NCBI RefSeq assembly: GCF_003122385.1
Contig: NZ_CP029255.1
Span: forward strand, 5,456,001 to 5,520,000
Origin: Flavobacterium crocinum
GTDB taxonomy: Bacteria; Bacteroidota; Bacteroidia; Flavobacteriales; Flavobacteriaceae
Direction of reading: 5' to 3'
Length of the DNA stretch: 64,000 nucleotides
Under the pieces are notes generated by a model. That model did no database searches. It saw only the letters and a program-made list of their open reading frames with translations, and was not told where the DNA came from. Position numbers and translations under genes: made by a program. Below are positions 7,359 to 54,773 of the stretch, in pieces (the first letter of the stretch is position 1; the number at the start of each line of letters is the position of its first letter).

Positions 7359-7592
7359 AGTATTTTATTTTATGTAAGGCCTACTCTTTTGCTTTTCGGC
7401 TTCCGCATTATGACGGGGATAAAAGTAAGATTTGACCTTTTTAATTAATCTATGTGATTTCCTGTTTTTAACAGGGGAAAAATCCCCTTTTTTCAGAATC
7501 TTAATTTTATTTAAAGCCAACCATTCATAAGCCCTAAGTTTAATTTAATAATATCTTAAGGCGCTTTATTCGTCCGTGTTTTATGTGATAAA

Positions 7593-12570: not shown

Positions 12571-12600
12571 GAAAACGGCTGTCATTAGACAGCCGTTTTT
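12571..12600. terminator. Bidirectional terminator between convergent genes
   Basis: Stem AAAACGGCTGTC / GACAGCCGTTTT with loop ATTA, A-rich on the left and T-rich on the right. It serves the acyl-CoA ligase on the plus strand and the five-gene MoxR operon on the minus strand. Confidence 0.9.
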
Positions 12601-14414
12601 TATTTCCTCAATTTCAGTTTATACTTCATAACATCCTTAAGCATCGATTTGTTTTTTTCATTAAAAGCAAGTAATTCAGATGCGATATCCGGTTTAATTG
12701 TAATCTGATCGGCTACAATTTCGTAAGCAATATTTTTGGTGATTTCTTCTAAGTCTTCATGTTTTTTAAACTCCTGTTTCATAGCCTTTAAAAACAACTC
12801 TGAATTCTCAGCCGAAACCTCTGTTTCATAAATGGAAGTTATGGCTCCGGATAATTTCTCTGTTGATTCGATATTCACAAAATAGTTATTGAGGCAATTG
12901 AATGCATCTTTATTGCTTCTCCAGCCCGTTATCAAAACTTCCTGCGCTCCATCAATATTCCAGATTTTATCTTTATAAATAAAAGACGCTTTTACGAATT
13001 GATTACTCTCTTTGTACTCGTCTATCACTTTACCATAAAACTTATCTGCTTCCGGTTTGTCCTTTAGAATCGTATACAAATCGCCCACTTTTTCGTTTTG
13101 ATTGAGTTCTCTGTATAATTCAATTGCCTGTTTGTAAACATGTCCTTTTTCGTAACACTCTGCTGCTTTGTTTTTATTATTACAATATTTAAGATGTACT
13201 GCTGCGGCTTCACTGTACAGCTCACCTTCCTCAAGCACATCTGCGGCTTTGTAATGATTTTTAAGCAGTTTCATATATATATGTGCGGCTTTGGCGTAAT
13301 CTTTTCTTTCTTTAAATTGCTCAGCCATTTTTTCATATCGGCTTTGTATAGTCGAAAAACGTTCCGAATCTATCAAAGCTGAACCTCCTGAACCCGATGG
13401 TTGACGTTTTGGCTCTGAATAACTTCTGGAAGAACCGGCTGAGCCACTGTCTTTTACAGCCATGGCAATAATTAACACAAGTGCACCTAAAATCACAACT
13501 AAAGCGACAAAAGGGTTCATCCCACTACTACTAGTGCCTGAGGAAGAGCAACTTCGCATGTTTAACAAAAAAATCGATGCAAAAGCTAACGTCAAAACAA
13601 TAGTAAAAGGTCCACATCCGGAATCGGTGGATTCATTTATCGTCTTTCTTCCTCCTCCTGAAAAAGAGCCACCAGCACCAGCAGCAGAACCTGAACCAAT
13701 TCCTTCAAAAGAAAGCTTTCCATCAAATCCACCTCTTGCTGTTTTTAAGGTATCCAGAGGAATAGCCATTTTTAAAGCCAGTTCAGGATTTTTATCCAGA
13801 AGCTCCAAAAACTTATCCATTTCTTTCTGATTTCCCTGCATTAACTTTTCCATATCAAACGGCAATTCTCCTAATACTTCTTCATCAGAAAATGGTTTTT
13901 CTATGTTTTCAAGAATCTCTTCCGTATTAGCTTCGTAACGTAATGACTCTATATGCTGCGGAATATAAACTGTTTTGAAAGGTTCGAGTATATCAATTTC
14001 TTTCAAAATTGGCGTTTCAAGTAAATCAATCCAGGAAACCTCATCCTTCAATTCCACCAATCCAATATCTGGATGCATGAAATGATAATGTTCAGAAAAT
14101 AAACTGTGCCACTCAGCCTTTGTTAACTGAGGGGTCACAATTGTATTTTCGGGAATGAACAATTTATTTTCTATCAATTGACAATAATAGTTCTTTCCAA
14201 TAGCATCAATTTTAGTCCGACTCTGATCCAAAACTAACAAACAACCAAACAACTCATTGACATCTGCTCCCGGAACCGGAAAAGCTTTGACCAAATGGAA
14301 CGGTAATCCAATACTCTGAATTTCCTGAAGCCATACTTTGACCAAACCGCTTTTTATAAAAATACCTCCTTTGGGAAATGTATTTTTAGTATTTATTCTA
14401 AGTTTAAGTTCCAT
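12600..14414 (-). CDS. bpX6-type membrane protein with TPR-like repeats (MoxR-vWA-propeller ternary system)
   Basis: 604 residues, last gene of the operon; its start overlaps the preceding gene by 11 bp. The N-terminal ~200 residues form an alpha/beta domain that fits the 'bpX' domains of MoxR-vWA-beta-propeller ternary systems (recognised from context; the bpX6 label is my best match). A Gly/Ser-rich linker leads to two hydrophobic segments, IVLTLAFASIFLLNM (~270-285) and VALVVILGALVLIIAMAV (~300-318), so it is probably anchored in the inner membrane. After another Ser/Gly linker come TPR-like helical repeats (DYAKAAHIYMKLLKNHYKAA; KAAECYEKGHVYKQAIELYR; ~370-500). It may tether or scaffold the ATPase machinery. 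Confidence 0.7.
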   Translation of the reverse strand: MELKLRINTKNTFPKGGIFIKSGLVKVWLQEIQSIGLPFHLVKAFPVPGADVNELFGCLLVLDQSRTKIDAIGKNYYCQLIENKLFIPENTIVTPQLTKAEWHSLFSEHYHFMHPDIGLVELKDEVSWIDLLETPILKEIDILEPFKTVYIPQHIESLRYEANTEEILENIEKPFSDEEVLGELPFDMEKLMQGNQKEMDKFLELLDKNPELALKMAIPLDTLKTARGGFDGKLSFEGIGSGSAAGAGGSFSGGGRKTINESTDSGCGPFTIVLTLAFASIFLLNMRSCSSSGTSSSGMNPFVALVVILGALVLIIAMAVKDSGSAGSSRSYSEPKRQPSGSGGSALIDSERFSTIQSRYEKMAEQFKERKDYAKAAHIYMKLLKNHYKAADVLEEGELYSEAAAVHLKYCNNKNKAAECYEKGHVYKQAIELYRELNQNEKVGDLYTILKDKPEADKFYGKVIDEYKESNQFVKASFIYKDKIWNIDGAQEVLITGWRSNKDAFNCLNNYFVNIESTEKLSGAITSIYETEVSAENSELFLKAMKQEFKKHEDLEEITKNIAYEIVADQITIKPDIASELLAFNEKNKSMLKDVMKYKLKLRK

Positions 14415-16941
14415 TTTGTCTTACATTTTTAATAAACGGATCCAGATATTTCTCCAGAAAATCTTTCTCTTTTATACTCATTAGGAAAGAATCTATAATA
14501 AAATAATCGTTACCGGAATATTCTGTTTCCGAAGCCATAATTGTCCTTGCGTTTACAATAAAAGGAACATAAAACTTAGGAATATCCTCTTTACTGCTTT
14601 CAAAAATTAAAATTCCGTCCTTATTTCTTACCCGGCTTCCATCCTTAGATTCAAAAGACAAGGTTTCGATGTAGCAAATTGCTCCGTTACTTTCTATTGT
14701 ACTCTTCAACGCTTCTGCTTCTTGTCTTGTCACATCATTCAAAATTACACCAAGCTCTTCATCTACAACAGCTTTACTTTCAACTAAAGATTTGGCTGTA
14801 TTTAGTTTTATTATTTTAACAAGATCAAGAGCAGATGCTCCTTTGTTTTTCAGAATAAGATTTACTTTTTCATCAAATTGTATCGATGGGTGTTTCCAGT
14901 CCTGAGAATAATAACCTCGCTTAGAAAACTCTAAGTGCGTTAAGTTAAATCCGTTAATTGTGATACCATCATTAACAATTGATAATCCTTTTATTTTTTT
15001 TATGATACTGTATTTGAATTTACTATTCATAAAATTTTGAACAAAAGAATTTTGTTTTAAGCTATAGGCCGAGAAAGCTTCATTAAGAAAATTATTACCA
15101 CTGGATCTTATTTTTAAAGCATCATCGACACGCCAATAATAGGTGCCATCGGTTAAATAGAACTCATTTTTATATCCAAATGCATTAACTTTCACTCCTT
15201 TAAGATCTTCATCAGAAACCATACTGCTCTTTAACTTCTGTTGATCAATGTTATATACATTAATTCGGGGAGCCGAAGCGCTGACATAACATAATAGCAG
15301 TTTTTCACCTTTGTCATTGGTTTTCATGGCAAATTCCCCTTTCTCAAAAGGAAGATTTGATGCTAATTTTTTAAATCCTTTGTCGAACTTATTACTAACA
15401 AACCAGTATAAATTTCCATTCAGGTAGGTATAAAAATCCGTTCCGTAATAAAAAATATTCTGGTAACTTCTCTCAATTGGAAATAGAAGAGGAATATCAT
15501 CGAACTCTGTTTCAGCAGGTTTTCGACGCGGTAAATCTTTCTTCTCTTTATTCCACAATTCCTCCAGCGGCATTATAATATGTTGAAGCATTTTTCTGCC
15601 ATTATTCTGATTTTTATAGACTTTGATACCTTCGATTTCCATTTCGAAAACATACTTGATCTCGTTATAGTACGCGCTAATCACATTTTTCATTGCAGTA
15701 AGTTTCAAACTATCTTCTGAAGAAAAAAGAAATACTTCCTGATTTTTACTGCTGATTTTATTTTGCTGAAAAAACGCTTCAAGTCCCATCGAACAATCCA
15801 GTTTACCGCTGAGCTCACTCAAAGCCTCAATAACATCATGAACGTTTTCTAACGGAACTTCTTTAAAATCCTGTCCTGCTATAAAAACTCTGCATTTAAT
15901 ATCCGTTTTTGGATGTCTTGCAATGGCAATCGCCGAAGCAAAAGACAGAATCTTAGGATTTCCCCAGTTTTTTAATGAGCTGTCAATAATCAGAATACGT
16001 TCGAACTTATCGGCTTCCGGCGGAACTTCTCTTTGAATATACAGTGCTTCGTTGTTGGCAATTCTGGACATAAAAACATCATCATCATAAGCAAATTCAG
16101 AAATTACCAGTTTATCAAAATCACCTTTGTTGGTCAAGTCTGAGATTCCTCCCAAAGGCTGCTCACTCGGATGATTATGGTGCAACGGAATATGAAGTCC
16201 GGACCAAAGTCGCTTGATAAGGCTTCCTACATGAAACGTACGGTCGTCCTGAATAAGTTGCTCAATAAAAGTAGCGGTATCAGCAAGATTTTCTTCTTCT
16301 AAAATTTCTTCTTTCAGCTTCTCTTTTACCTCTTCATGTGGATTATTCTCCATGGCAGACAAAATCGACTCCACCGTTGGAAAGTTCTTTTTAAGCAAAG
16401 CTAGCGTTCTGAAATCTTTTATAAAATTGGCCTCATTAAAAGGCTCTTTTACACCTGCCCTTACCAAATGATGTCTATGCTCTTTGTACTCTTCCAGAAT
16501 CTTTTTTGCTTTTTCGGAAGAAATTCTGTTGTGACAACCATCAAAAATGGTCTGAAACATTTTCAGTCTTTTTTCTCCCATTTTATATTCATCCGGCAAA
16601 GCCGCAAGTTGTCTCATAAAACCAATACTGGCACCTAATCTAAACGAATGTTCTACAGGAAAAGATTTGGTTATTTCCAGGGCTTTTGCCCAATCCTGAA
16701 TTCTGTCGATAGTTTCTTTACTATCGTGATTGGTTGCTGTAATGGCTAATAAAAGGGTTCCGAATGGCGGAAAATTAGTATCAGAAAGCGCTTCTAAAAC
16801 TTCAAAGACAAATTTCTCATAACCGATCGTTTGTCCATTCGGAATTGTGATCGTTTCAAATACACTATCGGGAGAAAATATCTGATTTTCCCATTCCCAA
16901 AAATAGTCTGTAAACGATTGAAAATATCTTTGAAATTCCAT
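14404..16941 (-). CDS. vWA plus beta-propeller-like protein with L7/L12-C-terminal-like insert (ternary system)
   Basis: 845 residues. The N-terminal ~300 residues are helical. A vWA-like Rossmann domain starts near 313 (FERILIIDSSLKNWG); Asp320 sits at the MIDAS position, but the DxSxS motif is degenerate (DSSLK). From ~450 to 680 there are repeated short beta blades (NLYWFVSNKFDKGFKKLASN; GTYYWRVDDALKIRS), as in a divergent beta-propeller. Residues 687-763 closely resemble the C-terminal domain of ribosomal protein L7/L12 (VNLILKNKGASALDLVKIIK, AEALKSTIESNGAICYIE). It follows the 232-residue gene by 7 bp. Its likely role is as vWA partner and effector of the MoxR ATPase. Confidence 0.7.
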   Translation of the reverse strand: MEFQRYFQSFTDYFWEWENQIFSPDSVFETITIPNGQTIGYEKFVFEVLEALSDTNFPPFGTLLLAITATNHDSKETIDRIQDWAKALEITKSFPVEHSFRLGASIGFMRQLAALPDEYKMGEKRLKMFQTIFDGCHNRISSEKAKKILEEYKEHRHHLVRAGVKEPFNEANFIKDFRTLALLKKNFPTVESILSAMENNPHEEVKEKLKEEILEEENLADTATFIEQLIQDDRTFHVGSLIKRLWSGLHIPLHHNHPSEQPLGGISDLTNKGDFDKLVISEFAYDDDVFMSRIANNEALYIQREVPPEADKFERILIIDSSLKNWGNPKILSFASAIAIARHPKTDIKCRVFIAGQDFKEVPLENVHDVIEALSELSGKLDCSMGLEAFFQQNKISSKNQEVFLFSSEDSLKLTAMKNVISAYYNEIKYVFEMEIEGIKVYKNQNNGRKMLQHIIMPLEELWNKEKKDLPRRKPAETEFDDIPLLFPIERSYQNIFYYGTDFYTYLNGNLYWFVSNKFDKGFKKLASNLPFEKGEFAMKTNDKGEKLLLCYVSASAPRINVYNIDQQKLKSSMVSDEDLKGVKVNAFGYKNEFYLTDGTYYWRVDDALKIRSSGNNFLNEAFSAYSLKQNSFVQNFMNSKFKYSIIKKIKGLSIVNDGITINGFNLTHLEFSKRGYYSQDWKHPSIQFDEKVNLILKNKGASALDLVKIIKLNTAKSLVESKAVVDEELGVILNDVTRQEAEALKSTIESNGAICYIETLSFESKDGSRVRNKDGILIFESSKEDIPKFYVPFIVNARTIMASETEYSGNDYFIIDSFLMSIKEKDFLEKYLDPFIKNVRQNGT

Positions 16942-16948
16942 TTTTATT

Positions 16949-17647
16949 TTATGAAAAAGTTAAGCGAAATGAACTAATTGATAGTGGTTTAATATTTTGT
17001 TTTGGAATAGAGGAATAACTGTTATCCTTATTCCAGAGTATTAGGTTTTTATCAAAAGGATTTATTTTATCCTTAAGCGTTTGAGTCAAAACTGGCCATT
17101 CAAAATCATATCCCGAAGGCAGTAAAAAATCATTCTTCTGCCAATAGGTATCTCCTTTTAAAGGCAACAAAGGTTTCCCGATAATCAACGCTTTATTATG
17201 GATTACAACCCATTGTAAAGGTTCCAGTCGGAATTTTGGAGCTGATTCGATATACACTTTCAATTCCTGATATTCTACTAGTAAAGCCTGTGCTTCTTTT
17301 TCCTCTTCTGATCGTTTTAATCCAATCTCAAGCTTCTGATTTATACCAAAAAAGTTATGATTGAAATTCGGCAATGAAACGGGCAAACCTCTCAAAACCG
17401 GCGACCATAATAAACCCGAAGGCAGTTTTTTGGACGGTAATTGTTTGCCTCTTTCGAACAACAAATTTTCTTTTAACTCGTATATTTTGGTATACGGAAT
17501 CTGAAGAAGTTCAGCCGAATTTATTTGTTCGGCCGAAAACTCTTTTATCCAGATCGTGTTGGCTTCAAAAGCAATTTTGAGATTTTCCCAATGCCGCACT
17601 GCACCAAGAAAATCTTTATGCTCTTTGTTAATTTCTAAAAAGTACAT
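16949..17647 (-). CDS. MoxR-system accessory protein (bpX-type domain), unknown function
   Basis: 232 residues, no signal peptide or membrane segment. It opens MYFLEINKEHKDFLGAVRHW and is rich in Trp and aromatic residues. A central segment GDTYWQKNDFLLPSGYDFEW is probably part of a compact fold. It lies 3 bp after the MoxR ATPase and 7 bp before the vWA protein, so it is translated with them. This size and position fit one of the short bpX domains of ternary systems; I cannot say which number. Confidence 0.6.
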   Translation of the reverse strand: MYFLEINKEHKDFLGAVRHWENLKIAFEANTIWIKEFSAEQINSAELLQIPYTKIYELKENLLFERGKQLPSKKLPSGLLWSPVLRGLPVSLPNFNHNFFGINQKLEIGLKRSEEEKEAQALLVEYQELKVYIESAPKFRLEPLQWVVIHNKALIIGKPLLPLKGDTYWQKNDFLLPSGYDFEWPVLTQTLKDKINPFDKNLILWNKDNSYSSIPKQNIKPLSISSFRLTFS

Positions 17648-17650
17648 TTT

Positions 17651-18781
17651 TTAAATAGTTTGCAGAATTTTTTGCCACAAAGATTCTATATGTTCCTGAA
17701 TATATTTTTTCTTTTCTGCGTCTTTAATCCAGTCGCAACGCGTTTGAATGTATCGTAATTTATCTTTGATTACGTTCTGTTCTTCAAAAGAAAGACTGTC
17801 TTCCTGCCATTTTTCGATCAGATAATTTACTTCCTTCATTACACTTTCTGCATCCGGTGTTTTGTTGTACATCGCCTGTGGATGTGCTTCTGTAGAAGTA
17901 TCTTTTTCAATAATTTTATTGATGATTCCTTCCAGAATTTCAATTTGCTCTTCGTTGTCCCAGATGTATTTCAACACCCAGAAATCGGATACAATCGATT
18001 CTTTTCTACCGCACATTAAAGCACTTGCCGCGATAAGGTTCTGAAGTTTTACGGCACGTCGGTCAGAAACTTTGATTCCGGTATTTCGAAGGCTATGAAT
18101 AATATCTACATATTCTTTTCGTGTAGCACTCAAATCGACCTGACGACAAAGTTTTTGCAATTCGCGAACCTCATCTGCCGAAATGGTTGGTACTTCTTCC
18201 GTTACCGAACCTTCCAGTTTCCATCCTGCAAGTAACACCTGATGCAGTAAATCCGGTTCTACGTAATCACATTTTATACGAATCAAAAAACGGTCTAGTA
18301 AAGCATTTAACGATTCATCTTCGGGCATAAGGTTACTTGCGCCAACGAACATCAAGGCCGGTAATTTTTTAGTTTCCTTACCACGACGAAAGATTTTCTC
18401 GTTAAGCGCCATCAGCAAACTGTTCAGGATAGCCGAATTGGCGTTAAAAATCTCATCCAGGAAAACCATCGAAGCTTCCGGCATCATTCCGTCAGTATTC
18501 GTAATCAATTCTCCTTCTTTCAGTTTTCGAATATCAAACGGTCCAAAAATCTCGTTAGGTTCTGTAAAACGGGTTAACAGATATTCGAAATTTTTGTCGC
18601 CCTCGATTCCTTTAGAAAGCGATCTCACGATGGCACTTTTTGCCGTTCCCGGAGGCCCAAGCAAAAAGGCATTTTCTCGTGCCATTAATCCAATTCCCAA
18701 CAAATCGATGATTTCATTTTTACCAACAAAAGTTTCTTTGATATATTTTAAAACGGCATTTAATTTAGCTGTAGCATTCAT
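17651..18781 (-). CDS. MoxR-family AAA+ ATPase
   Basis: 376 residues. Walker A GPPGTAKS at 42-49 and Walker B VFLDE at 106-110 are intact. A sensor-1 Asn (VGASNLMP, ~147-154) and the arginine-finger region DRFLIRIKCDYV fit the MoxR/RavA branch. These ATPases form hexamers and act as chaperones or remodellers together with vWA-domain proteins. Here the vWA partner is two genes downstream in the same operon. A coiled C-terminal part (~310-376) lies beyond the AAA lid. Confidence 0.92.
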   Translation of the reverse strand: MNATAKLNAVLKYIKETFVGKNEIIDLLGIGLMARENAFLLGPPGTAKSAIVRSLSKGIEGDKNFEYLLTRFTEPNEIFGPFDIRKLKEGELITNTDGMMPEASMVFLDEIFNANSAILNSLLMALNEKIFRRGKETKKLPALMFVGASNLMPEDESLNALLDRFLIRIKCDYVEPDLLHQVLLAGWKLEGSVTEEVPTISADEVRELQKLCRQVDLSATRKEYVDIIHSLRNTGIKVSDRRAVKLQNLIAASALMCGRKESIVSDFWVLKYIWDNEEQIEILEGIINKIIEKDTSTEAHPQAMYNKTPDAESVMKEVNYLIEKWQEDSLSFEEQNVIKDKLRYIQTRCDWIKDAEKKKYIQEHIESLWQKILQTI

Positions 18782-18813
18782 TATTTACTTCTATTTTTAT
18801 TAATTCGTTTATT

Positions 18814-19440
18814 TTAAAGCTGTGCCCAAAATAGTTTTTGATAGTCTCCAAATCCTATTTCTAGTTGTTTTTTTATAAAATCAGACTGTGCCCATTTTAC
18901 AGATTTTCTTTGCACGATTCGGTCAACATAAAGTTGAAGCAAACAATCATTTGCCGCAACTACATCAAAACTTATATTTTCGGCATACAAATCAGATCCT
19001 ATCGCCGAATAATGAAACTGGATTAAATGTTGCTCTAATATCTCAATAATCAAATCTTCCGGATCAATCTTCCTTATTTCTGTTATAATCTGAGGCAAAA
19101 AACGAAGACACAAATCTGCCGAAATAATTGCCGAAGCATCTATTACACCAATATAAAAAGGCAAAAGTTCCTTTACATCGCTCATTTTATGCTCTCTATG
19201 CAACAAAAGTTGTGTGGCCAAATATACTGTTCTGGCAGCCCATAAAGCGGATTCCGAATTAAAACCTGGTGCTATTCCCGGGTATTCTAAAGTTTCCTTT
19301 TCATATTCTGTTTCCAGAAACAAAACGGCTTCGTTTTCCTCTGTTGGGGCAATTGTAATTAACTTATCATACAAAATAACCTGTTCGATTGTTCTGAGAT
19401 GATAAATAGTATCCAAAAAAGGTGTTTTTATTTTCTCCAT
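18814..19440 (-). CDS. First gene of the MoxR ternary operon (bpX-type, helical), unknown function
   Basis: 208 residues and mostly helical, opening MEKIKTPFLDTIYHLRTIEQ. The middle part WAARTVYLATQLLLHREHKM and ELLPFYIGVIDASAIISADL looks like amphipathic helices rather than membrane spans. It lies 32 bp upstream of the MoxR ATPase. Proteins of this size at the head of MoxR-vWA-propeller operons carry a bpX domain; the assignment rests on operon position. An upstream hairpin at ~19.6 kb separates it from the exonuclease gene. Confidence 0.6.
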   Translation of the reverse strand: MEKIKTPFLDTIYHLRTIEQVILYDKLITIAPTEENEAVLFLETEYEKETLEYPGIAPGFNSESALWAARTVYLATQLLLHREHKMSDVKELLPFYIGVIDASAIISADLCLRFLPQIITEIRKIDPEDLIIEILEQHLIQFHYSAIGSDLYAENISFDVVAANDCLLQLYVDRIVQRKSVKWAQSDFIKKQLEIGFGDYQKLFWAQL

Positions 19441-19677: not shown

Positions 19678-20223
19678 CTAGTTCTTAAGGCACCAATCCA
19701 AAATCTTAGCGATATTTTTTGCATCGTCAATACCTCTATGATGTGTTCCCTCCAGTGGAATATTCAATAATTGCAAAGCACCATTCATTCCAGTGGATCT
19801 TTTAAGACCAAACTTTTCGGCAAAATGCTCTTTTACATTGATGTGTTCCTCTCCCATCGGATAGGAAATACCAAAGGATTTACATTGCTTCATGAGCATA
19901 TTCAAATCGTACTGACCGTAACTTGCCCAAGTATATAAATCGGGATTATATTCGTCGATTAGCAAATCGACAGCTTCTTCAAAACCAACTCCGTTTTTGT
20001 TCAGTAAATTCTGAGTAATAGTTGTCAGTTCTGTACAAAACGGACTCACACTGGAATGCTGTGGTTTGATTAAAATGCCTTTATTCTGGCTGATTACTCC
20101 TGTTTCTGTATCCAAAACCGCTAATCCGATTTCTATAATTTCATTTTGCTGGCCTTTCGGGACTGCTCCCTGCCAGCATGTGGCTTCTAAATCAATAATG
20201 ATGATTTTATCTGTAGTTTTCAT
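19678..20223 (-). CDS. DEDDh 3'-5' exonuclease, KapD/ERI1-like
   Basis: 181 residues, a stand-alone DEDDh exonuclease. ExoI is IIIDLEATCWQG (Asp and Glu ligands at ~residues 10-14), ExoII includes YTWASYGQYDLNML (~115-128) and ExoIII is HHRGIDDAKNIAKI with the catalytic His and Asp (~160-172). The Cys-Trp after DLEAT is typical of the ERI1/KapD branch, which trims the 3' ends of RNAs. An RNA substrate is inferred from the family. It is not in an operon with the RNA-repair genes, though it lies between them and the MoxR system. Confidence 0.88.
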   Translation of the reverse strand: MKTTDKIIIIDLEATCWQGAVPKGQQNEIIEIGLAVLDTETGVISQNKGILIKPQHSSVSPFCTELTTITQNLLNKNGVGFEEAVDLLIDEYNPDLYTWASYGQYDLNMLMKQCKSFGISYPMGEEHINVKEHFAEKFGLKRSTGMNGALQLLNIPLEGTHHRGIDDAKNIAKILDWCLKN

Positions 20224-21341: not shown

Positions 21342-22439
21342 TTACTTTACGAAGATTTCTTTCAATTGACCAATTACGTTTCCGCCTCCAGAAATGGTGA
21401 TTTCACCAATTTTATCCGCGATTTTTTCAACGTATTCCATCTCTTTCAACTTCCACAGCATTTCGTTTTCTTCCATCAGCTTAGCTGTGTTTAACAAACT
21501 TCTTGTTGAAGCCGTTTCTTCTCTTCTCATGATGCTGTTCGCCTGTGCTTTTTTCTCTGCAACCAAAACCTGATTCATAATCTCTTTCATATCACCTGGA
21601 AGAATTACATCTCTTATTCCGGCGTCTGAAATTTTCAAACCTAAGTTTTCGATTTTTGAAGCCACTTCTGCCAGAATTTCTTCCGCAATAGCATCTTTTT
21701 TGTTTAACAATTCATCCAAGGTCAAACCTCCGATAAAAGCTCTTAAAGCCAATTGCATTGCTACATACAATTGCTTTTCAAAGTCCTTGTTTTCTATCAA
21801 AGCTTTCATAATATCAACTACTTGGTATCTCACAAAGAAATTGATTCTCAATCCCGCTTTATCTTTAGTCAACAATTCCTGACCTGATATTTCAACTTGC
21901 TGTTGTCTCATATCGATTGTTTTTACTTCGATTGTAATCGCGTTGTTCCAGAAGTAATGCGTTCCAGATTTCAACTCTTTTACAAAAGTTCCGTTCACAA
22001 ACAACAACGCTTTGTCGTTGCTCGCTACAATAAACTTTCTTACGAAGTATCTCATTTTCACATTTTCCAATAAGTTTACCTTAATGTCTTCTGTGATTTC
22101 GATTTTTGACAAATCAGCCTTTGTGAATTCATTTTTCACAATTCCTTTCCAGAAAGCATATCTTCCTGGAGTTAAAACTTCTTTAAAGTTTCCATTCACG
22201 AACTGCAATACAATTTCGTTATCGGCAACCTCAACAATTTCAAGCATTGAAGCCAAAACTTCATTTTCCAATAAAATATTCAATTCAAATGGAGCCTGAA
22301 AAACGGCATTCATATCGTAGATCAACACATTTTTGTTTCCAAAAATCCAGTGTAAACCTTCTTCTAATACTTTTACTAATTTTCTGTTTTCGAAGACCAA
22401 GCCCACTTGGTATCCTCCGATTTTAATTTTCTTTATCAT
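21342..22439 (-). CDS. SPFH/Band-7 (slipin-like) protein, probable RNA-repair scaffold
   Basis: 365 residues. The SPFH core is at ~residues 150-290: GQELLTKDKAGLRINFFVRY, then LLNKKDAIAEEILAEVASKI and LGLKISDAGIRDVILPGDMK. A long helical, Ala/Glu-rich segment follows (~285-340). Unlike membrane stomatins there is no N-terminal hydrophobic anchor; instead residues 1-140 carry repeated beta strands (VGLVFENRKLVKVLEEGLHW), so it may be a cytosolic ring or scaffold. Its ~0.8-kb leader holds a palindromic operator and tRNA-like RNAs. SPFH proteins paired with a tRNA-like RNA are a predicted RNA-repair module (Burroughs and Aravind 2016). The role is inferred from this context. Confidence 0.85.
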   Translation of the reverse strand: MIKKIKIGGYQVGLVFENRKLVKVLEEGLHWIFGNKNVLIYDMNAVFQAPFELNILLENEVLASMLEIVEVADNEIVLQFVNGNFKEVLTPGRYAFWKGIVKNEFTKADLSKIEITEDIKVNLLENVKMRYFVRKFIVASNDKALLFVNGTFVKELKSGTHYFWNNAITIEVKTIDMRQQQVEISGQELLTKDKAGLRINFFVRYQVVDIMKALIENKDFEKQLYVAMQLALRAFIGGLTLDELLNKKDAIAEEILAEVASKIENLGLKISDAGIRDVILPGDMKEIMNQVLVAEKKAQANSIMRREETASTRSLLNTAKLMEENEMLWKLKEMEYVEKIADKIGEITISGGGNVIGQLKEIFVK

Positions 22440-22866
22440 TTTTATTTTGTTTTAAGGTTTCAGGTTTAATGTTTCATGTTCCGAAATCTATAAAACCTTT
22501 ATCCTCTATTATCTTTATGCTATTTTATTTAAAAGTCAAACGTCTAACTTTTAACATTTAACTTATAACTTCCTTTAATAAAAAACCTCCTTGCCTTTAT
22601 CCTCCGAAAAAAGCGGGTGAAAAGTTGTCCTTTGTTTACCTGAGTCGTTTGCGATTATCTTTTGTCTTCATGATCCCCAAATCATTTTAACAATCAAACC
22701 GAAAAGAAAACAAGTGTTTCAAAAAACAGTACTTTCCGCACTGGCTTTATCATGAGTGTGAAATTTCAGTCCCGAAGCCTCGGGATGGAATTCTTAGTTT
22801 CACTGACAAAGACAAATCAGTTTTTCTAACTGGTCATCTTTTTAAGAGTGATGGTCTCTACTGTTT
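22440..22866 (-). other. Structured leader between tRNA-like RNAs and the SPFH gene
   Basis: No gene is seen. On the minus strand there are several hairpins: TCCCGAGGC / TCGGGA (22770-22785) inside an outer stem GTGAAA / TTTCAC (22758-22763 with 22798-22803), and CAGTT / AACTG (22818-22832). The last ~150 bp before the SPFH start are unstructured and A/T-rich. The outer hairpin pair could be a processing site or the 3' end of the tRNA-like transcript. Confidence 0.5.
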
Positions 22867-22936
22867 ACAGATTTTCAGTCTGTTGACTTACCAATTTGTC
22901 TAACCGAAGCGTATTCGGTGTAGGACTCGAACCTAC
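22867..22936 (-). ncRNA. Circularly permuted tRNA-like RNA, anticodon loop CTGAAAA (GAA)
   Basis: Read 5'-3' on the minus strand, the arms appear in permuted order. First a T-arm GTAGG-TTCGAGT-CCTAC (22936-22920), then a 6-bp acceptor helix ACCGAA / TTCGGT closed by loop TACGC (22919-22903). Then TA at positions 8-9, a D-arm (GAC, loop with A14, G18-G19 and A21, GTC; 22900-22885), A26, and an anticodon arm ACAGA-CTGAAAA-TCTGT (22883-22867). The chain break falls in the variable loop and the acceptor end is capped, so it cannot be charged. The anticodon would read Phe. It lies in the SPFH leader. Confidence 0.75.
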
Positions 22937-22940
22937 ATAA

Positions 22941-23022
22941 ACACTCTAATGTTCTATCCGGATTGAACTACCGTATTACTACGAGTGGGATTCGAACCCA
23001 CAACCCTTAGATTCCTTGTGTG
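22941..23022 (-). ncRNA. Circularly permuted tRNA-like RNA with GNRA-capped acceptor stem
   Basis: Arms in order on the minus strand: a closing helix 5' strand (ACAC, bulge, TCTAA; 23021-23007), 5-nt variable region GGGTT, T-arm GTGGG-TTCGAAT-CCCAC (23001-22985), 5-bp acceptor helix TCGTA / TACGG capped by GTAA (22984-22971), TA (positions 8-9), D-arm GTTC-AATCCGGATA-GAAC (22968-22951, with A14, G18-G19, A21), A26, and closing strand TTAGA-GTGT (22949-22941). Core spacings equal those of a real tRNA. The 5' and 3' ends meet in the anticodon stem, as in bacterial Y-RNA tRNA-like domains. Confidence 0.78.
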
Positions 23023-23227
23023 TGATAGTTTTTTGGAAAACCATCAAAACCTCCAAATCAAGTTGCATAGAAAAACATAATCCGCCTCTGCGAAAAGTTC
23101 CCTACAATGGTGCTATACAGAAACACTCAACTGGACTTGTTTGATATTTTTAAACAAAGCCTATACTTTGTTGTATTTCAGTTTTTAAAAGAACTTCTTT
23201 TATTTCTTATTCAAATATTCAAATTAC

Positions 23228-23250
23228 ACTGCGCAATTATTTTGCGCAGT
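23228..23250. promoter_or_regulatory. Palindromic operator of the RNA-repair regulon, copy 1 (SPFH/tRNA-like unit)
   Basis: Perfect dyad ACTGCGCAA / TTGCGCAGT with 5-bp spacer TTATT. On the minus strand it is followed at once by GTAATTTGAATATTTGAATA, a weak -7-like region. It lies ~205 bp upstream of the first tRNA-like RNA and just after the ATP-grasp-like gene. The same core (TRCGCA-RTTATTT-TGCGYA) recurs at 50457, 52021, 55032 and 55121. Confidence 0.8.
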
Positions 23251-24196: not shown

Positions 24197-24255
24197 TTTT
24201 AAGCCAACTTGAGAAACCTGTATGGTTTTCCGTCTTATGACACACTCAATATTTG

Positions 24256-24327
24256 TCTGGGAAGCAGGATTCGAACCTGCGACCTCCCGCGTCCAAGGCG
24301 GGTAAACAACCACCGTTATCTTCCCAG
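24256..24327 (-). tRNA. Atypical tRNA-Pro-like gene (anticodon TGG)
   Basis: 72-nt cloverleaf: acceptor CTGGGAA / TTCCCAG, T-arm GCAGG-TTCGAAT-CCTGC, anticodon arm CCCGC-CTTGGAC-GCGGG (TGG, proline), discriminator A, no encoded CCA. The D-arm is abnormal: position 8 is G instead of U, the stem is AAC / GTT with a T-T mismatch, and A14 is missing. A normal proline tRNA starts with C-G at 1-72 and has a standard D-loop. It could be a tRNA-like decoy or cofactor of the RNA-repair locus rather than a translating tRNA. Confidence 0.6.
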
Positions 24328-24401
24328 TTTTTTCAAAGACCCTGAGGTAGCTAAGGCTTAAAAAACTTAGATTCTTAGAACCTTAGCATCTTTAAAAAAA
24401 G

Positions 24402-24474
24402 CGGTTCATACGGGAATCGAACCCGTTTCTCCCGAGAGACAATCGGGAAGGTTAGCCAGTAACCCCAATGAACC
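24402..24474 (-). tRNA. Atypical tRNA-Asp-like gene (anticodon GTC)
   Basis: 73-nt cloverleaf with perfect acceptor GGTTCAT / ATGAACC, D-arm GGTT-ACTGGCT-AACC after a 3-nt linker (one more than normal), anticodon arm CCCGA-TTGTCTC-TCGGG (GTC, aspartate), 4-nt variable loop, T-arm ACGGG-TTCGATT-CCCGT and discriminator G, followed by a run of T. The extra nucleotide before the D-stem and the two-nucleotide 26 region are unusual. It may be a divergent second Asp tRNA or another tRNA-like RNA. Confidence 0.65.
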
Positions 24475-24494
24475 TGTTCCTTCTAGAGAACGTG

Positions 24495-24568
24495 TGATTT
24501 TGGAAGGATTCGAACCTTCGACCATCTGCTTAGAAGGCAGACGCTCTATCCAACTGAGCTACAAAATC
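24495..24568 (-). tRNA. tRNA-Arg (anticodon TCT)
   Basis: Canonical 74-nt cloverleaf: acceptor GATTTTG / CAAAATC, TA at 8-9, D-arm GCTC-AGTTGGATA-GAGC, anticodon arm TCTGC-CTTCTAA-GCAGA (TCT), variable TGGTC, T-arm GAAGG-TTCGAAT-CCTTC, discriminator A, no encoded CCA. All core bases are normal, unlike the two neighbours downstream. Confidence 0.95.
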
Positions 24569-48532: not shown

Positions 48533-49405
48533 CTAAAAATCTCCGTAATAAACTTGAAAACAAGGCAATTTCAAATCATTTCTCCAGGTATCAACCACTT
48601 GATTTCTATCATCTAAAACAAATTCTACAAAGTATTTATCTTTGATCGATTCGTTATAGATTTCGGTTTTAATGATTGAATCTTTTCGGCTGTCTTTGGT
48701 TTTACGCATGATCAGGTCGTCGTATTCGATTTCGTGTTTTTCAAGGAAACGCAAGGTTGGTTCTTTGTATCGGTCTTCTCTTCCCGAAACTAAAAGTATT
48801 TGATATCCTAATTTTTTGTAATTTCTCAACACATTTGCCACCGGATTGTTGAGTTCATCTTCATCACATTTGCTGGCATCAAACGGATTTCTTCCGTTCA
48901 TTAGCGCAAGCGTTCCATCAAGATCACAGATAATTGCTTTTGGCAAATCTGGGTTTTGGGCGCAATATTCAGGAGAATCTTTAAAAAACTGACGGTGCAT
49001 TTTTCTAATTACTTTTTCTCCAACTGGTTTTTCTCTTAAAGCATCTCTTTCGATACAAACCGCAACATCCGTATTTACTTCCATAACTTCAACCTCAACT
49101 TTTTGATTGAATTTTGTGTTGTATTCCTGAACCAATTGCGAAACACGTCTAAGATTAGTTTCAGACAAATTGGTATCATCGATTACAATGTTTTTTCCTT
49201 CTTCTAAAGATTTTACGATTAATAAATCGCGAACTTTTTTAACGAATTTTTCATTGCTTTGAGACGTAATACCGTTATCAAACATCGCGCGCAAATCGTC
49301 TCTGTTGATTCTTTTATAATTTTCCGGATTTTCTGCAACTATTTTTTTAGCCAAAGTCGATTTTCCACTTCCCGGCAATCCTTTCATTAAAATTACTTTT
49401 CTCAT
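48533..49405 (-). CDS. T4 Pnkp-like polynucleotide 5'-kinase / 3'-phosphatase
   Basis: 290 residues from the ATG at 49405, which is 1 bp after the ligase stop; a TTG start upstream would overlap the ligase and is rejected. The N-terminal kinase has P-loop GLPGSGKS (9-16), the NRDDLR substrate motif (~34-39) and DDTNLS. The C-terminal HAD phosphatase has D161-L-D163-G-T (ICDLDGTLALMN), VSGRED and FVLDDRNQVVDTWR. As in phage T4 it removes 3'-phosphate or 2',3'-cyclic phosphate and phosphorylates the 5'-OH of a cleaved RNA so the ligase can seal it. Kinase-first order is the T4 arrangement. Confidence 0.92.
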   Translation of the reverse strand: MRKVILMKGLPGSGKSTLAKKIVAENPENYKRINRDDLRAMFDNGITSQSNEKFVKKVRDLLIVKSLEEGKNIVIDDTNLSETNLRRVSQLVQEYNTKFNQKVEVEVMEVNTDVAVCIERDALREKPVGEKVIRKMHRQFFKDSPEYCAQNPDLPKAIICDLDGTLALMNGRNPFDASKCDEDELNNPVANVLRNYKKLGYQILLVSGREDRYKEPTLRFLEKHEIEYDDLIMRKTKDSRKDSIIKTEIYNESIKDKYFVEFVLDDRNQVVDTWRNDLKLPCFQVYYGDF

Positions 49406-49406
49406 T

Positions 49407-50423
49407 TTATTCTTCTTCCTTATTAAATGGTCTTTCAAATTTTGGGCGAATCATTTTCCAGATAATCGCTGGGTAATCTTTGCCATTCAGCATTGCAAAC
49501 AAGACTCCTTTATAATTACAAGTCTGAAAATACAAAGCGGTTTCTTTTCTGGATTCTAAAACTCTGAAATCCAATTTGCATTGCTCTTCAATTTCTTTAA
49601 ATTCTTTTTCCAAATCGGCTTTTGTCTGCTTAACCCAGCTGAAAAATTCATCAGGAACACGCTCCAGAATTTCTTCCATTGATTGGTTTGTTTTTAAATA
49701 TTCCCAGATATTCAAATTCGAAACCTGAGTAATGATTCGGTGCAAACGAAGGTATTCGTCGAACTTGATTTTTACACGGAAGTTGTTTGCATATTTGATA
49801 ATGAAACCTTCTTTGTTGGCCAATTCCATTTCTTTTAAAGCCTCAATATCTTTAATTCCGTGGTATTTTTCAACAACAGGAAAACCAATATCTTCCAACG
49901 GAAATTCTTCTCCTGAATTGGTATCAATAATGGCTAGCAAAACCAACTCTTCTGATGCTCCGTAATCTAAAACAATACGGTTTTCAGGATAAATAATCTC
50001 GAACAAATAGGTTTTATTTTTATCCAAAAGTGACCATGAATCTTTATATTTTCCGTGCAACATTTCATTAGCCTTATCTGACTGTTCACTGGTAAAAGAG
50101 CCTCTGCTGGCTATAAAAGGAACATTTTCTATCCAATATAAAATACCTAACGAGCCGTCCATTTTATCATAAACTTCAAAAGCTGATTCAGGAAGAACCT
50201 GATTTTCCATTTCGCCTAAGTTGAAAAACTTTGGAAAAGGTCTTGCGATTACATTTCCTTTTTCATCCAAAATCAAACCTCTGCAAGCCAATGTTACTTC
50301 ATTCCAGATTCTCTCAAATTGGGCATTTTGGGTATAATTGTAAATGTACAAATCGTGTTCAGGGTGTTTGTTTACCCTTACATAATTTGCAGAAATCATT
50401 TCTTTTAAAAGCGTTGTATTCAT
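49407..50423 (-). CDS. Rnl1-like (T4 RnlA-type) ATP-dependent RNA ligase
   Basis: 338 residues, near the size of phage T4 Rnl1 (374). Motif I is YDKMDGSLG with adenylated Lys87. Motif Ia is like ASRGSF. Motif IIIa/IV is NKEGFIIKY (~212) and motif V is VKIKF. It seals 3'-OH and 5'-phosphate RNA ends after AMP transfer. It is translated with the Pnkp gene (1-bp gap), which is the exact T4 tRNA-repair pair. A palindromic operator and -7-like box (GAATCTTTG) lie directly upstream. The substrate (nicked tRNA) is inferred from the T4 model and the tRNA-like RNAs nearby. Confidence 0.9.
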   Translation of the reverse strand: MNTTLLKEMISANYVRVNKHPEHDLYIYNYTQNAQFERIWNEVTLACRGLILDEKGNVIARPFPKFFNLGEMENQVLPESAFEVYDKMDGSLGILYWIENVPFIASRGSFTSEQSDKANEMLHGKYKDSWSLLDKNKTYLFEIIYPENRIVLDYGASEELVLLAIIDTNSGEEFPLEDIGFPVVEKYHGIKDIEALKEMELANKEGFIIKYANNFRVKIKFDEYLRLHRIITQVSNLNIWEYLKTNQSMEEILERVPDEFFSWVKQTKADLEKEFKEIEEQCKLDFRVLESRKETALYFQTCNYKGVLFAMLNGKDYPAIIWKMIRPKFERPFNKEEE

Positions 50424-51208: not shown

Positions 51209-51979
51209 TTAAAACTTTTCGTTTAGCATATCGATGCATTCATCATTACAACTCAGAAAACCATTTACCGATTGAAACTCTCCAAAATTGCTAATCAGTT
51301 TTAGCCAATAATGAACATATTGTTGTAAAATTTCTTTTTCTTTTACAGTGATTGTTTTTATATAAATAAAAGCTTCCAAATCACTAAAATGGCTAACAAA
51401 TTTCTTTTTAGTATATATTTCTATATCCCTTTCAATTAGTGCAATATTTTGTCCTATGTAAAAAGCAATGATTTTCCAAATATCAATATCATCAGTATTC
51501 TTTTGATTAAATTCTGAAATAGAAACAAAATCTATATTCCCGAGAGCTTTCAGTTTTAAATTAAAATCATGAATTCCTTTTAAGATTGGTCGAATCTGAG
51601 TTCTGTACTCAGTTCTTGTCAGCATAGTCAAAACGGTACGTACAGCTTTATAAATAGCTAATGTTTTATTTCTGATATGTTTTTCTTTTACCAGCAATTC
51701 ATGATTTTGTTCATGTAGAGAATACGTTTCCAACAATGCATTATTAAGCGAATCAATCCATGATTTTGTATAAATAGTATCTGAAATTTTTCCATTTTCA
51801 ATCACAGCTAATGTTGCATTCCAATTCAGATCATACTCTTTCAAAAGTGCCAATACTTTATTTTTTCTGTCCTCCTGTTTTCCAGGCATGTCTTCTTTTG
51901 AAATAATAATAATTACATCCTGATCTGTAGAATCATCAGAACCATAGAAATAATAAGGATATGGCAAATTAGGTTTCAT
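51209..51979 (-). CDS. Nucleotidyltransferase (polymerase-beta-like) of the RNA-repair locus, paralogue 1
   Basis: 256 residues. YPYYFYGSDDSTDQDVIIII carries G13-S14, D19, D21, the same catalytic pattern as paralogue 2. The helical half aligns too (LAIYKAVRTVLTMLTRTEYR against LKFLRSTRIILSFVSKTEYR). So the two arose by tandem duplication but have diverged strongly, which suggests different jobs or a heterodimer. It is preceded by an operator copy 42 bp upstream of its start and followed 2 bp later by paralogue 2. Confidence 0.72.
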   Translation of the reverse strand: MKPNLPYPYYFYGSDDSTDQDVIIIISKEDMPGKQEDRKNKVLALLKEYDLNWNATLAVIENGKISDTIYTKSWIDSLNNALLETYSLHEQNHELLVKEKHIRNKTLAIYKAVRTVLTMLTRTEYRTQIRPILKGIHDFNLKLKALGNIDFVSISEFNQKNTDDIDIWKIIAFYIGQNIALIERDIEIYTKKKFVSHFSDLEAFIYIKTITVKEKEILQQYVHYWLKLISNFGEFQSVNGFLSCNDECIDMLNEKF

Positions 51980-52282: not shown

Positions 52283-54523
52283 TTAATCCACCAATAATTG
52301 CGTCACCACTGCTGGATTCATCGCCCATTGCGCTGTATAAACCTCATCGGCAATTTCATTTTCGGTGATTGTCAAACCTTGAGCTTCCGCTTTAAGCTGT
52401 AACAAATTACCAATATTCAATTTGCTGTTTAGTTTTGACAACAACGCCTGAATTCCTTTGAAATCCAAACCACCAACAACCTGACCTCCGAAAGTCATCT
52501 CCAACCAAACGATTTCTCTTTTGGCTACATCCAACACTCCAAAAACCAAACCTTTAGCAACATTCTGCGTCACACGAACCTGATGATCTACACACGACGG
52601 ATCGTAGGCAACACCTGTTTTCTCTGAAATTTTCATCGGGTGTTTGCTGTTCATCCAACCTACTATTAAATTTGGCGTAATACTTCCGTTGCTGTACGCG
52701 TTGCAGGTAAAAGTTACAAATTTAGCTTTGGCTTTCGCCAATTCGTCGATGTTGATGTTGATATATTCGGCTGTTCCAATTTGATTCGGAATGCTTCGGA
52801 TATCTCCACTATGCTGACAACCTGTTGTGGTTAATCGGCTGAAAGAACAAATATCGGCTTTATCCTCATAAGCGATATGACAGCTTAAATCCATATCTAA
52901 ATGTTGCGCTGGCAAATCTTTACCCCATTGCATAAACAATCGCACTTCGTTACCTTCAATTGGGAAACGTGTTCCCATTAAAGCAACTGGCAAATCTTGA
53001 ACTGTTTCACTTCGATCTCCTATAGAAACCGGAATATTAAACAATTGCGGATCGATATAGATAGTTTTGTTGGTGTTCGCAATTTTTGCAAATCGTTTTT
53101 TCATGGCCAAAAGACACAATTCTTCGATTTGATTTTTCATTGCTTCCAACTGCACATCAGCATACAACTTCAATAAAGCGTTGGCTTCAATTCGTTTGTT
53201 TGTTCCACCCAAAGGTTTCACACTTCTCTGCATGTTTTTATCAAAATAATTTTGAGCATACATATTCAAAGTAAACACCAATCGAGCCGGAACTTTATCG
53301 ATGATTTCTTCAAAATGAGCAATAGTTTCCTCTGCTCCAAACCATAACATATTGGAGAATAACGAACGAGCAAATAATCCTGGACGTTGTTTCAATAATC
53401 CAAATGTTTTATCGGCATCAAATTTCAATCTTGACGAATCTACTTTGCTTTGCCAAACATCGTACACTTGGTTGTAGAATACATCCATTAAAAAGTTCAA
53501 TTTTTCGAACCCTTTTCTTTTACTGTATTCTGCCAAACGCAACGCTCGGATAAAACGAACCCACATTCCTCTTTTTGGATGCATGGTTTCGCACATGGCT
53601 TCAACGTCCATATCCATATTGTTCAGCCAGTTTGCTACCATTAAACATTCTTTTCGGGAATATTTAAGCTTTAAATCTTTTTGAGATGAAATTCTCGCCT
53701 GAACGCTTGTATCTAAAACATTATGGAAATGCTGTGCATTTTTTGTTGTTCTTTTGATAATCGTTTTTGGTTCGATAATTTGAAGCATTCCTGTGTTTTT
53801 ATACCACAAGTATCGTAAAATATCGGTTGGTGTTTTTAAAAACTGAGACGCTTGGTCTTCTTTACCGTTTTCGATCAAAAGATCAATTACCAGCATTAAA
53901 GTTTCCTTCATTGCTACTTCGGTTTTTGGTAAAGGCAAATAGTGCATCGCCATTTTTAAACTATCTATCTGAGTAGCGTCTAAAGCGGTTTTAGATTGCA
54001 ATAATGATATATAAAAATCATTTAAATCTTTTTCTGTCCACAATTCAAGCACTTTCAGTTTGCTTCCTTGTCCGATATTTTCCAGTTTTCCAAATTCAAA
54101 CGGAGTTCCGCAGAATGGGCAACCGTTGTATCTTTCTAATGGAAAAGTATTATCTGGGATAATATGTCCGCATTGTAATTTAGTTCCGTTTTTAGTCTGA
54201 AAAATGTTTCCGAAAAACGTTATGATATGATCTACAACAGATTCATTGGTTGGAATATTCCATTCTTTTACCAATGGTGTCCAGTTTTTATCTGTTCCTA
54301 AAACTTCTCTTAGAACTTCTAAAACCTCGATTTTATATTTTGGGTTTACGTTGTTTAAAGCATGAAGCAAAGATTCAGAAAATGTAAATCCAAGTTTTGA
54401 AACATTGGCTAACAAAACGGATGTTGTTCCGGATAAATTTTTAACATCATTCGTAATCATTTCTGATGGAATGAAAATAGCATTTTGACGTAAACTGATT
54501 TTTAATAATTCTTTTGTTTTCAT
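52283..54523 (-). CDS. Zinc-finger/RING-like plus TerD-like protein (MXAN_6230/SCO0854-like)
   Basis: 746 residues, no signal peptide. A zinc-binding site C118-x-H120 ... C135-x2-C138 (LQCGHIIPDNTFPLERYNGC) looks like a short RING or ribbon. The middle (~200-510) is helical, HEAT-like (HPKRGMWVRFIRALRLAEYS). The C-terminal ~220 residues resemble TerD: HLDMDLSCHIAYEDKADICS, GCQHSGDIRSIP, and INIDELAKAKAKFVTFTCNA. Proteins of the MXAN_6230/SCO0854 type have this make-up, and it may be a scaffold for RNA repair. Its leader carries a tRNA-like RNA and five structured repeats under two operators, the same plan as the SPFH gene. Confidence 0.7.
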   Translation of the reverse strand: MKTKELLKISLRQNAIFIPSEMITNDVKNLSGTTSVLLANVSKLGFTFSESLLHALNNVNPKYKIEVLEVLREVLGTDKNWTPLVKEWNIPTNESVVDHIITFFGNIFQTKNGTKLQCGHIIPDNTFPLERYNGCPFCGTPFEFGKLENIGQGSKLKVLELWTEKDLNDFYISLLQSKTALDATQIDSLKMAMHYLPLPKTEVAMKETLMLVIDLLIENGKEDQASQFLKTPTDILRYLWYKNTGMLQIIEPKTIIKRTTKNAQHFHNVLDTSVQARISSQKDLKLKYSRKECLMVANWLNNMDMDVEAMCETMHPKRGMWVRFIRALRLAEYSKRKGFEKLNFLMDVFYNQVYDVWQSKVDSSRLKFDADKTFGLLKQRPGLFARSLFSNMLWFGAEETIAHFEEIIDKVPARLVFTLNMYAQNYFDKNMQRSVKPLGGTNKRIEANALLKLYADVQLEAMKNQIEELCLLAMKKRFAKIANTNKTIYIDPQLFNIPVSIGDRSETVQDLPVALMGTRFPIEGNEVRLFMQWGKDLPAQHLDMDLSCHIAYEDKADICSFSRLTTTGCQHSGDIRSIPNQIGTAEYININIDELAKAKAKFVTFTCNAYSNGSITPNLIVGWMNSKHPMKISEKTGVAYDPSCVDHQVRVTQNVAKGLVFGVLDVAKREIVWLEMTFGGQVVGGLDFKGIQALLSKLNSKLNIGNLLQLKAEAQGLTITENEIADEVYTAQWAMNPAVVTQLLVD

Positions 54524-54581
54524 TTTTTTAATTTTTAAAATTTAGATAATGGTGCTTCTGAGTTCTACCTAAAAGATTTTT

Positions 54582-54601
54582 GAAGTAAGAAACACTTGAC
54601 C
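54582..54601 (-). repeat. GGTCAA-N7-TTACTTC element, unit 5
   Basis: N7 = GTGTTTC on the minus strand. It can pair over seven positions (one G-U) with GAAGCAC at 54558-54552, 30 nt downstream. Confidence 0.75.
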
Positions 54602-54659
54602 TGAAATTTGAGTGTAATGAATTAGCTGATTCAAATTGGAAGTTTGCGGGTTTCCCCAA

Positions 54660-54679
54660 GAAGTAAGCTAATTTTGACC
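54660..54679 (-). repeat. GGTCAA-N7-TTACTTC element, unit 4
   Basis: N7 = AATTAGC. With the next base it pairs 8 bp (AATTAGCT / AGCTAATT) with 54627-54620. A GGG-GAAA-CCC hairpin lies in the 40-nt interior. Confidence 0.8.
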
Positions 54680-54714
54680 CTCGTTTTTTTATTAATGATG
54701 ATTTTAAAACTATG

Positions 54715-54731
54715 TTCGGATTCGAACCGAA
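54715..54731 (-). ncRNA. Isolated T-arm-like hairpin within the leader array
   Basis: TTCGG-TTCGAAT-CCGAA, a perfect T-stem with a standard T-loop, inside the region enclosed by the N7 pairing of unit 3 (TTAAAAC 54759-54753 with GTTTTAA 54710-54704). Together these form an acceptor-like stem plus T-arm, a minimal tRNA half. Confidence 0.6.
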
Positions 54732-54745
54732 AGTAGCCGTTGTCT

Positions 54746-54765
54746 GAAGTAAGTTTTAATTGACC
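54746..54765 (-). repeat. GGTCAA-N7-TTACTTC element, unit 3
   Basis: N7 = TTAAAAC; an exact 7-bp complement GTTTTAA lies at 54710-54704, enclosing the T-arm-like hairpin. Confidence 0.8.
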
Positions 54766-54773
54766 ATTAATTG

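Follow-up and report, generated by a model that had tools for sequence, protein, structure and literature searches.

Y RNAs are encoded next to the gene of their partner protein and act in trans. Some archaea and algae have permuted tRNA genes with swapped halves, in which the 3' half precedes the 5' half and the transcript is matured into a chargeable tRNA. In 2016, Burroughs and Aravind reportedly proposed that RNA-repair cofactors include SPFH/Band-7 modules together with a novel tRNA-like molecule cognate to them; the association itself is therefore not new. Among the papers searched here, none joins SPFH and tRNA-like. YrlA (RF02553) is a substrate of DusA and TruB and tethers PNPase to Rsr (PMC8394870), and it can be superposed on tRNA once the circular permutation is allowed for (PMC11472068). 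We analysed a stretch of 64,000 nucleotides from Flavobacterium crocinum (the window), in which an RNA ahead of an SPFH gene shares the SPFH gene, the tRNA-like RNA and the RNA-repair neighbourhood with the 2016 proposal, and shows a permuted and doubled anatomy that may be new.

Two permuted tRNA-like units in a larger leader RNA

A first-pass annotation had claimed two neighbouring segments with tRNA arms in permuted order, and direct reading of the minus strand confirms them. They lie among the following features:

23229 to 23249, between the RNA and the ORF upstream: operator-like palindrome CTGCGCA-N7-TGCGCAG
23153 to 23172, minus strand: 5' hairpin AACAAAG-loop-CTTTGTT, read from the sequence, with changes of pairing partner visible in the aligned relatives
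23028 to 23150, minus strand: conserved 5' domain (alignment and consensus fold of 30 loci)
23011 to 22945, minus strand: permuted tRNA unit 1 (closing helix, variable loop, T-arm, capped acceptor, U8A9, D-arm, A26)
22944 to 22867, minus strand: permuted tRNA unit 2 (T-arm, capped acceptor, U8A9, D-arm, intact anticodon-type arm)
22737 to 22859, minus strand: 3' domain, conserved in the 30-locus alignment
22727 to 22743, minus strand: terminator-like hairpin with a T-run, its 3' arm differing in several relatives
21342 to 22439, minus strand: SPFH / Band 7 protein of 365 aa (Pfam Band_7, 106.9 bits), the constant partner of the RNA
19678 to 20223, minus strand: RNase_T-type exonuclease (Pfam RNase_T), a recurrent neighbour

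Unit 1 opens with TCTAA and GGGTT, followed by the T-arm GTGGG-TTCGAAT-CCCAC (23001-22985) and the capped acceptor TCGTA-GTAA-TACGG (22984-22971), a 5-bp stem closed by GTAA. U8 and A9 come next, then the D-arm GTTC-AATCCGGATA-GAAC (22968-22951), A26 and TTAGA, which pairs with TCTAA to form a closing helix equivalent to an opened anticodon stem. In unit 2, the T-arm GTAGG-TTCGAGT-CCTAC (22936-22920) leads into a 6-bp capped acceptor with loop TACGC, ACCGAA-TACGC-TTCGGT (22919-22903), again followed by U8 and A9. The D-arm (22900-22885) has a stem of 3 bp, in which 13-22 would be A.A, the sole blemish; A26 and an intact anticodon-type arm, ACAGA-CTGAAAA-TCTGT (22883-22867), complete the unit. 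Both caps, the closing helix and the CTGAAAA loop were read just as the first-pass annotation had described them, and U8, A14, G18-G19, A21, A26 and the T-loops are in the places it gave in both units. As the acceptor ends are capped, the modules cannot be charged.

ARAGORN called no tRNA at 22867-23022, where no linear cloverleaf of a tRNA gene was found, and no Rfam family scored above threshold over the same positions. The fold of the single sequence is unremarkable and only little better than that of shuffles (z -1.72), so that the case for the units rests on relatives. The extent first given to the RNA has to be revised: both units do lie at 22867-23022, but they are only part of a larger conserved RNA that continues on both sides, from about 23172 to 22737 on the minus strand in the 30-locus alignment, with 5' and 3' domains of its own. 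The 5' domain contains the hairpin GTG-TTTCTGTATAG-CAC (23126-23110), the motif of which was found in strict form in 51 of 80 loci (the best 80 of 522 SPFH relatives), with closing stems that vary between GUG/CAC, GCG/CGC, GGG/CCC and GAG/CUC. The consensus fold of the 3' domain over 30 loci gave no pairs. We discarded the hairpin at 22743-22727 as a conserved terminator, as it is not kept in the aligned relatives, and the 30-locus alignment holds no conserved terminator between the RNA and the SPFH gene. Elsewhere in the window, a tRNA array (Arg, Asp, Pro; 24255-24568, minus strand) lies upstream of the RNA, with Asp and Pro genes that score low (48.5 and 38.3 bits) and may be unusual, and an Rfam DUF805b RNA was found above threshold at 7378-7409 (minus strand).

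Unit 1 shares its topology with YrlA: its parts run in the order closing helix, T-arm, capped acceptor, UA, D-arm and closing helix, and the anticodon stem, opened, closes off the permuted tRNA-like domain. This supports the comparison with Y RNAs drawn in the first-pass annotation. The likeness extends to the RNA-repair neighbourhood and to a protein partner encoded next door. The window RNA differs in having two units in tandem, of which the second bears an anticodon-type arm, in its extra 5' and 3' domains, and in its partner, which is SPFH; by score and by partner it falls outside RF02553. With the Rfam YrlA model it scored 32.8 bits, below the gathering score of 69; this sub-threshold match carries no weight, since another part of the genome, readable as tandem tRNAs, reaches 31.2 bits, and the YrlA bit score was set aside. 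The outer stem of the YrlA model is largely mispaired on the window RNA, in which no equivalent of the Ro-binding basal stem was found.

Covariation and linkage to the SPFH gene

A DNA query of 461 bases matched 54 of 199 congeneric genomes, 42 of them strongly over the leader and 12 by short T-arm matches only, and 30 loci from the genus (L003-L032, window included) were aligned. In unit 1, 99.1% of the cells are paired (30 loci, 29 distinct rows) and 76 cells are changed on both sides versus 18.0 in shuffles (0 of 500). Slid-structure controls were paired at 33.0-49.6%, a comparison in which the proposed structures have an advantage, being drawn from the same sequences. For unit 2, the figures are 97.5% paired and 65 both-side changes versus 15.4 in shuffles (0 of 500) over 25 of the 30 loci; the count omits L018, L020 and L022, which have no last arm, and L019, which has no unit 2 (4 of 30 close relatives in which the unit is lost or shortened), as well as L023 with an extra arm. 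Both-side changes occur in all five pairs of cap 1 and all six pairs of cap 2, the sixth of which is unpaired in 9 of the 25 loci. In the closing helix of unit 1, three loci have A-U in place of U-A at the first pair, and three have this swap at the last pair; the T-stems and the D-stem covary as well. The covariation that the first-pass annotation had proposed to look for is thus present in both units among relatives from the genus, and chance pairing is excluded by these relatives.

Among the best 80 of 522 SPFH loci, a cap hairpin stands directly 3' of 136 of the 172 T-arms in the leaders; the corresponding counts are 46 of 338 for T-arms elsewhere in these loci and 184 of 3440 for shuffled stretches. 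We parsed 123 distinct capped acceptors with stems of 5-8 bp, and 12 of the 37 four-base cap loops are GNRA. The loops are mostly of 3-9 nt and imply no processing, in which the units differ from the archaeal and algal permuted tRNA genes whose halves are likewise swapped. Since the caps covary in relatives, the earlier view of the units as dedicated tRNA mimics rather than decayed tRNA genes is upheld.

The position ahead of the SPFH gene held throughout the alignment: SPFH lies downstream in the same orientation in 30 of 30 RNA loci, with about 620-820 nt from the RNA to its ATG, and in L019 its reading frame is split in two. A search of the same 199 genomes with the SPFH protein gave 49 matches, 42 at no less than 69% identity and seven at 48-50%. 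The 42 RNA-bearing genomes are exactly the 42 of the higher class, a one-to-one linkage in this sample of one genus. The seven others carry a diverged RNA with capped acceptors, the pairing of which, judged by eye, is complete in six genomes and broken by one mismatch in the seventh; most of the seven have the hairpin motif GYGUUUC-N-GUAURGCRC. At the family level, SPFH was found in 26 of 249 genomes, with T-loop motifs upstream in 25 of these 26.

A scan of named genomes gave these best 80 of 522 SPFH relatives, which by record title come from Flavobacteriaceae, Weeksellaceae, Cytophagales, Chitinophagaceae, Sphingobacteriales and Bacteroidales, with one titled Limnohabitans. A strict scanner found the module in 76 of these 80 leaders (1400 nt each, a few hits well upstream); a looser parser found it in 77 of 80 leaders of 850 nt, with at least two modules in 57. 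The looser parser gave no module in three loci: L189, which has a cap mismatch, L182 and L176. An ordinary-looking linear class II tRNA-like stands just before SPFH in L182, at the usual place of the permuted RNA. A further T-arm with an 8-bp capped hairpin, D-arm and anticodon arm was seen about 1.0-1.13 kb before SPFH in L146, L147, L149 and L174, at some distance upstream of the main RNA. By sequence, the SPFH protein resembles the stomatin, QmcA and HflK chains in the PDB, and a search of phage records for SPFH gave no match.

RNA-repair neighbourhood, probable Ro60-linked arrays and leaders beyond the phylum

The first-pass annotation had linked the RNA to SPFH, which does adjoin it, and had missed the RNA-repair setting of this link. 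Within 10 kb of SPFH in the best 80 of 522 loci, the neighbour clusters, each named from one representative, include RtcB (27/80), RNase_T (26/80), WYL, metallophosphoesterase and RNase H-like proteins (18/80 each), Rnl2 ligase and a cyclic-phosphate receiver (12/80 each), an RLIG1-like protein (8/80) and RlaP (7 and 6/80). Many of the 80 loci show no RtcB or named ligase cluster inside these 10 kb, and several loci are short contigs. In the window, the SPFH gene is the first of a minus-strand run with the RNase_T exonuclease and a MoxR-vWA-bpX ternary system. The latter (bpX0-bpX4, bpMoxR; 12600-19440, minus strand) lies downstream of SPFH. Ternary systems of this beta-propeller kind have been described as conflict systems (PMC7159879). 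We rejected the system as a constant partner, its genes being found within 10 kb in only 4-5 of the 80 loci; what recurs across these loci is RNA repair.

The palindrome next to the RNA belongs to a rare motif. TRCGCA-N7-TGCGYA has six sites in the 5.88 Mb genome (control 0), five of them in the window (23229, 50458, 52021, 55034 and 55122). These precede the RNA, a T4-type RNA ligase (49407-50423) and an ORF at 51209-51979, and two lie between a second tRNA-like leader and a divergent ORF-WYL pair. Of the best 80 of 522 loci, 47 have an exact copy of the operator in the 1100 nt ahead of SPFH, and we infer that the WYL protein may be the repressor acting at the palindrome. The T4-type RNA ligase and a PNKP-type kinase-phosphatase (48533-50423, minus strand) are in the common operator regulon, and the sixth site (L205, 1501) stands ahead of a 167-aa ORF of no recognised kind. 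The second conserved leader RNA (54524-55020, minus strand) precedes a 746-aa RING_SCO0854-like protein (52283-54523), the AlphaFold model of which is too poor for use (mean pLDDT 50.0). Its tRNA-like is linear and carries a long insertion (54774-54890; Rfam tRNA 50.7 bits, uncalled by ARAGORN). The motif GGTCAA-N-TTACTTC occurs five times in this leader and nowhere else in the window. Long matches to the leader were found in 23 of the 199 genus genomes, and 17 of these 23 keep the five copies.

The absence of a Ro60/Rsr gene, noted in the first-pass annotation, stands for the genome itself, which has no TROVE domain (PF05731), but not for its relatives, as TROVE lies within 10 kb in 6 of the best 80 of 522 SPFH loci. 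A model of unit 1 (R1) had that unit as its best match in its own genome (84.5 bits). The next matches, at 48.4, 46.8 and 43.0 bits, include the tandem-tRNA stretch; the count of 160 matched among 295 class genomes therefore mixes kinds, and we rejected it as a measure of prevalence. Among 29 R1 loci beyond the own one, 16 matches span at most 73 nt: 11 lie by SPFH and 3 by TROVE, and the remaining two are an array with no TROVE in view (L244) and a stretch that reads as tandem tRNAs (L248). Compact arrays of permuted modules adjoin TROVE genes in three class genomes (L233, L234 and L238), where T4-type ligases or other genes lie downstream of them or close by. A repeated motif, GTGYCGTA-N-ATACTTC, is seen in these three arrays and in L244, with TROVE beside three of the four. 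The four are probably the Ro60-linked Y RNA arrays of Bacteroidota, and the same module would thus serve two scaffolds in the phylum, Ro60 and SPFH.

Relatives of the SPFH protein at 34-42% identity were found in nine records of a plasmid collection, and leaders were read by eye in seven of them, a small set from outside the phylum. The Subdoligranulum leader has a T-arm and a capped acceptor (one mismatch in nine) with a possible D-arm, in agreement with its lowest-energy fold. Photobacterium has two linear tRNA-likes (Rfam tRNA 54.1 and 46.4 bits), and three Burkholderia records have a linear tRNA-like with its anticodon stem closed by GAAA. In E. coli and Citrobacter, a capped hairpin follows a T-loop sequence with no clear D-arm; the consensus fold of four such leaders retains the cap hairpin and pairs the T-arm strands elsewhere, which argues against a simple T-arm there. 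The E. coli leader was found in 1624 of 5426 complete genomes (about three in ten). The Citrobacter SPFH gene is divergent from rtcR and is followed by a nucleotidyltransferase, and a Pseudomonas SPFH gene sits in the rtc locus, according to one report (PMC13086221). This comparison suggests that the tRNA body is kept across SPFH leaders while its topology is not. All these RNAs may even form a single SPFH-cognate family in which evolution would preserve the tRNA body in three dimensions and re-wire the chain. Its members would be permuted, capped and doubled in Bacteroidota, linear in Photobacterium and also in Burkholderia, there with a tetraloop capping the anticodon stem, and cut down to T-arm and capped acceptor in E. 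coli and Citrobacter. The anticodon triplet of the second Bacteroidota module would diversify as bait for anticodon nucleases; taken as a whole, this is a tentative and rather unlikely proposal.

A proposed cofactor role and its alternatives

The most probable reading, which we regard as about evenly balanced between right and wrong, is that the RNA is the cofactor of an SPFH scaffold in tRNA repair, a counterpart of Y RNA with Ro60. It would be made along with RNA-repair genes from the operator of a WYL-linked regulon, and its two permuted, acceptor-capped modules would copy the tRNA body with its T-loop/D-loop elbow in a form that is not chargeable. The SPFH protein encoded next to it, presumably cytosolic, would assemble into a ring or cage and bind the RNA, itself stable. 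The tRNA modules would then recruit tRNA-handling enzymes to SPFH, candidates being ligases, kinase-phosphatases, exonucleases and modification enzymes, in the way that Y RNA brings PNPase to Rsr/Ro60.

Two other readings come behind it. The anticodon-type arm could act as a bait, its changing triplets being bound or cut by anticodon nucleases in place of tRNA, or its cleavage being sensed, and this would fit the RNA-repair setting of the SPFH loci. An arm following the last T-arm could be parsed in 70 of the 80 leaders (best 80 of 522). In the 48 that begin with CT or CA, there are 25 loops on 10 stems (24 on 9 in 47 leaders without the misparsed L167), and loop entropy is 1.59, 1.39 and 1.68 bits at positions 34-36 against 0.39 at U33; the Chryseobacterium group alone has 12 loops on 4 stems in 17 loci (11, 3 and 16 without the misparse). 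The constancy of the stems is, however, partly imposed, as arms were picked by their first stem letters. Unit 1 has no anticodon loop at all, and YrlA is not cut by the nuclease according to a published study. The window arm itself, with its CTGAAAA loop, is of the other type: 19 of the 22 arms that begin otherwise keep A36-A37-A38, a constant feature and the motif that the i6A enzyme MiaA recognises. The variable triplets fit a bait, and the constant arm type is in keeping with a modification enzyme or a protein site; we judge a bait unlikely. A slightly lower probability goes to a cis-acting leader that controls SPFH expression, for instance as the binding site of a tRNA-processing enzyme or as a target that is cut during attacks on tRNAs. 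The constant orientation and the position about 620-820 nt ahead of the ATG in all 30 loci speak for it, and with no conserved terminator before the gene the RNA may be only a leader. Yet the stretch from the RNA to the ATG is long and variable, no conserved pairing with the start site was seen, and Y RNAs also adjoin their protein gene while acting in trans.

An origin of the units by decay of tandem tRNA genes is very improbable, as is a permuted gene from which a tRNA would be matured. Tandem tRNA arrays also place a T-arm before a D-arm and match the YrlA and R1 models, real tRNA genes lie upstream, and pieces of the modules exceed the Rfam tRNA threshold in 4 of 6 relatives scanned. If the stretch between the units were a linear tRNA, the 3' strand of cap 1 should pair with the 5' strand of cap 2; this pairing reached 0.358 over 57 loci, below the 0.430 +/- 0.022 obtained by shuffling between loci, and the linear reading was dropped. 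The covariation of the caps, found in 123 distinct forms, refutes decay.

If the RNA is indeed a cofactor of SPFH, RNA repair would have a second protein scaffold, independent of Ro60 and served by a tRNA mimic of its own, present in tractable Flavobacterium and Chryseobacterium and, in a reduced form, in E. coli. The role of tRNA-like repair RNAs as tether, decoy or sensor becomes testable by swapping single modules. The RNA also carries a warning, since genome annotation labels pieces of the modules as tRNA. Selection for the shape of tRNA regardless of chain order would be direct evidence of shape mimicry, of which this family offers many natural examples.
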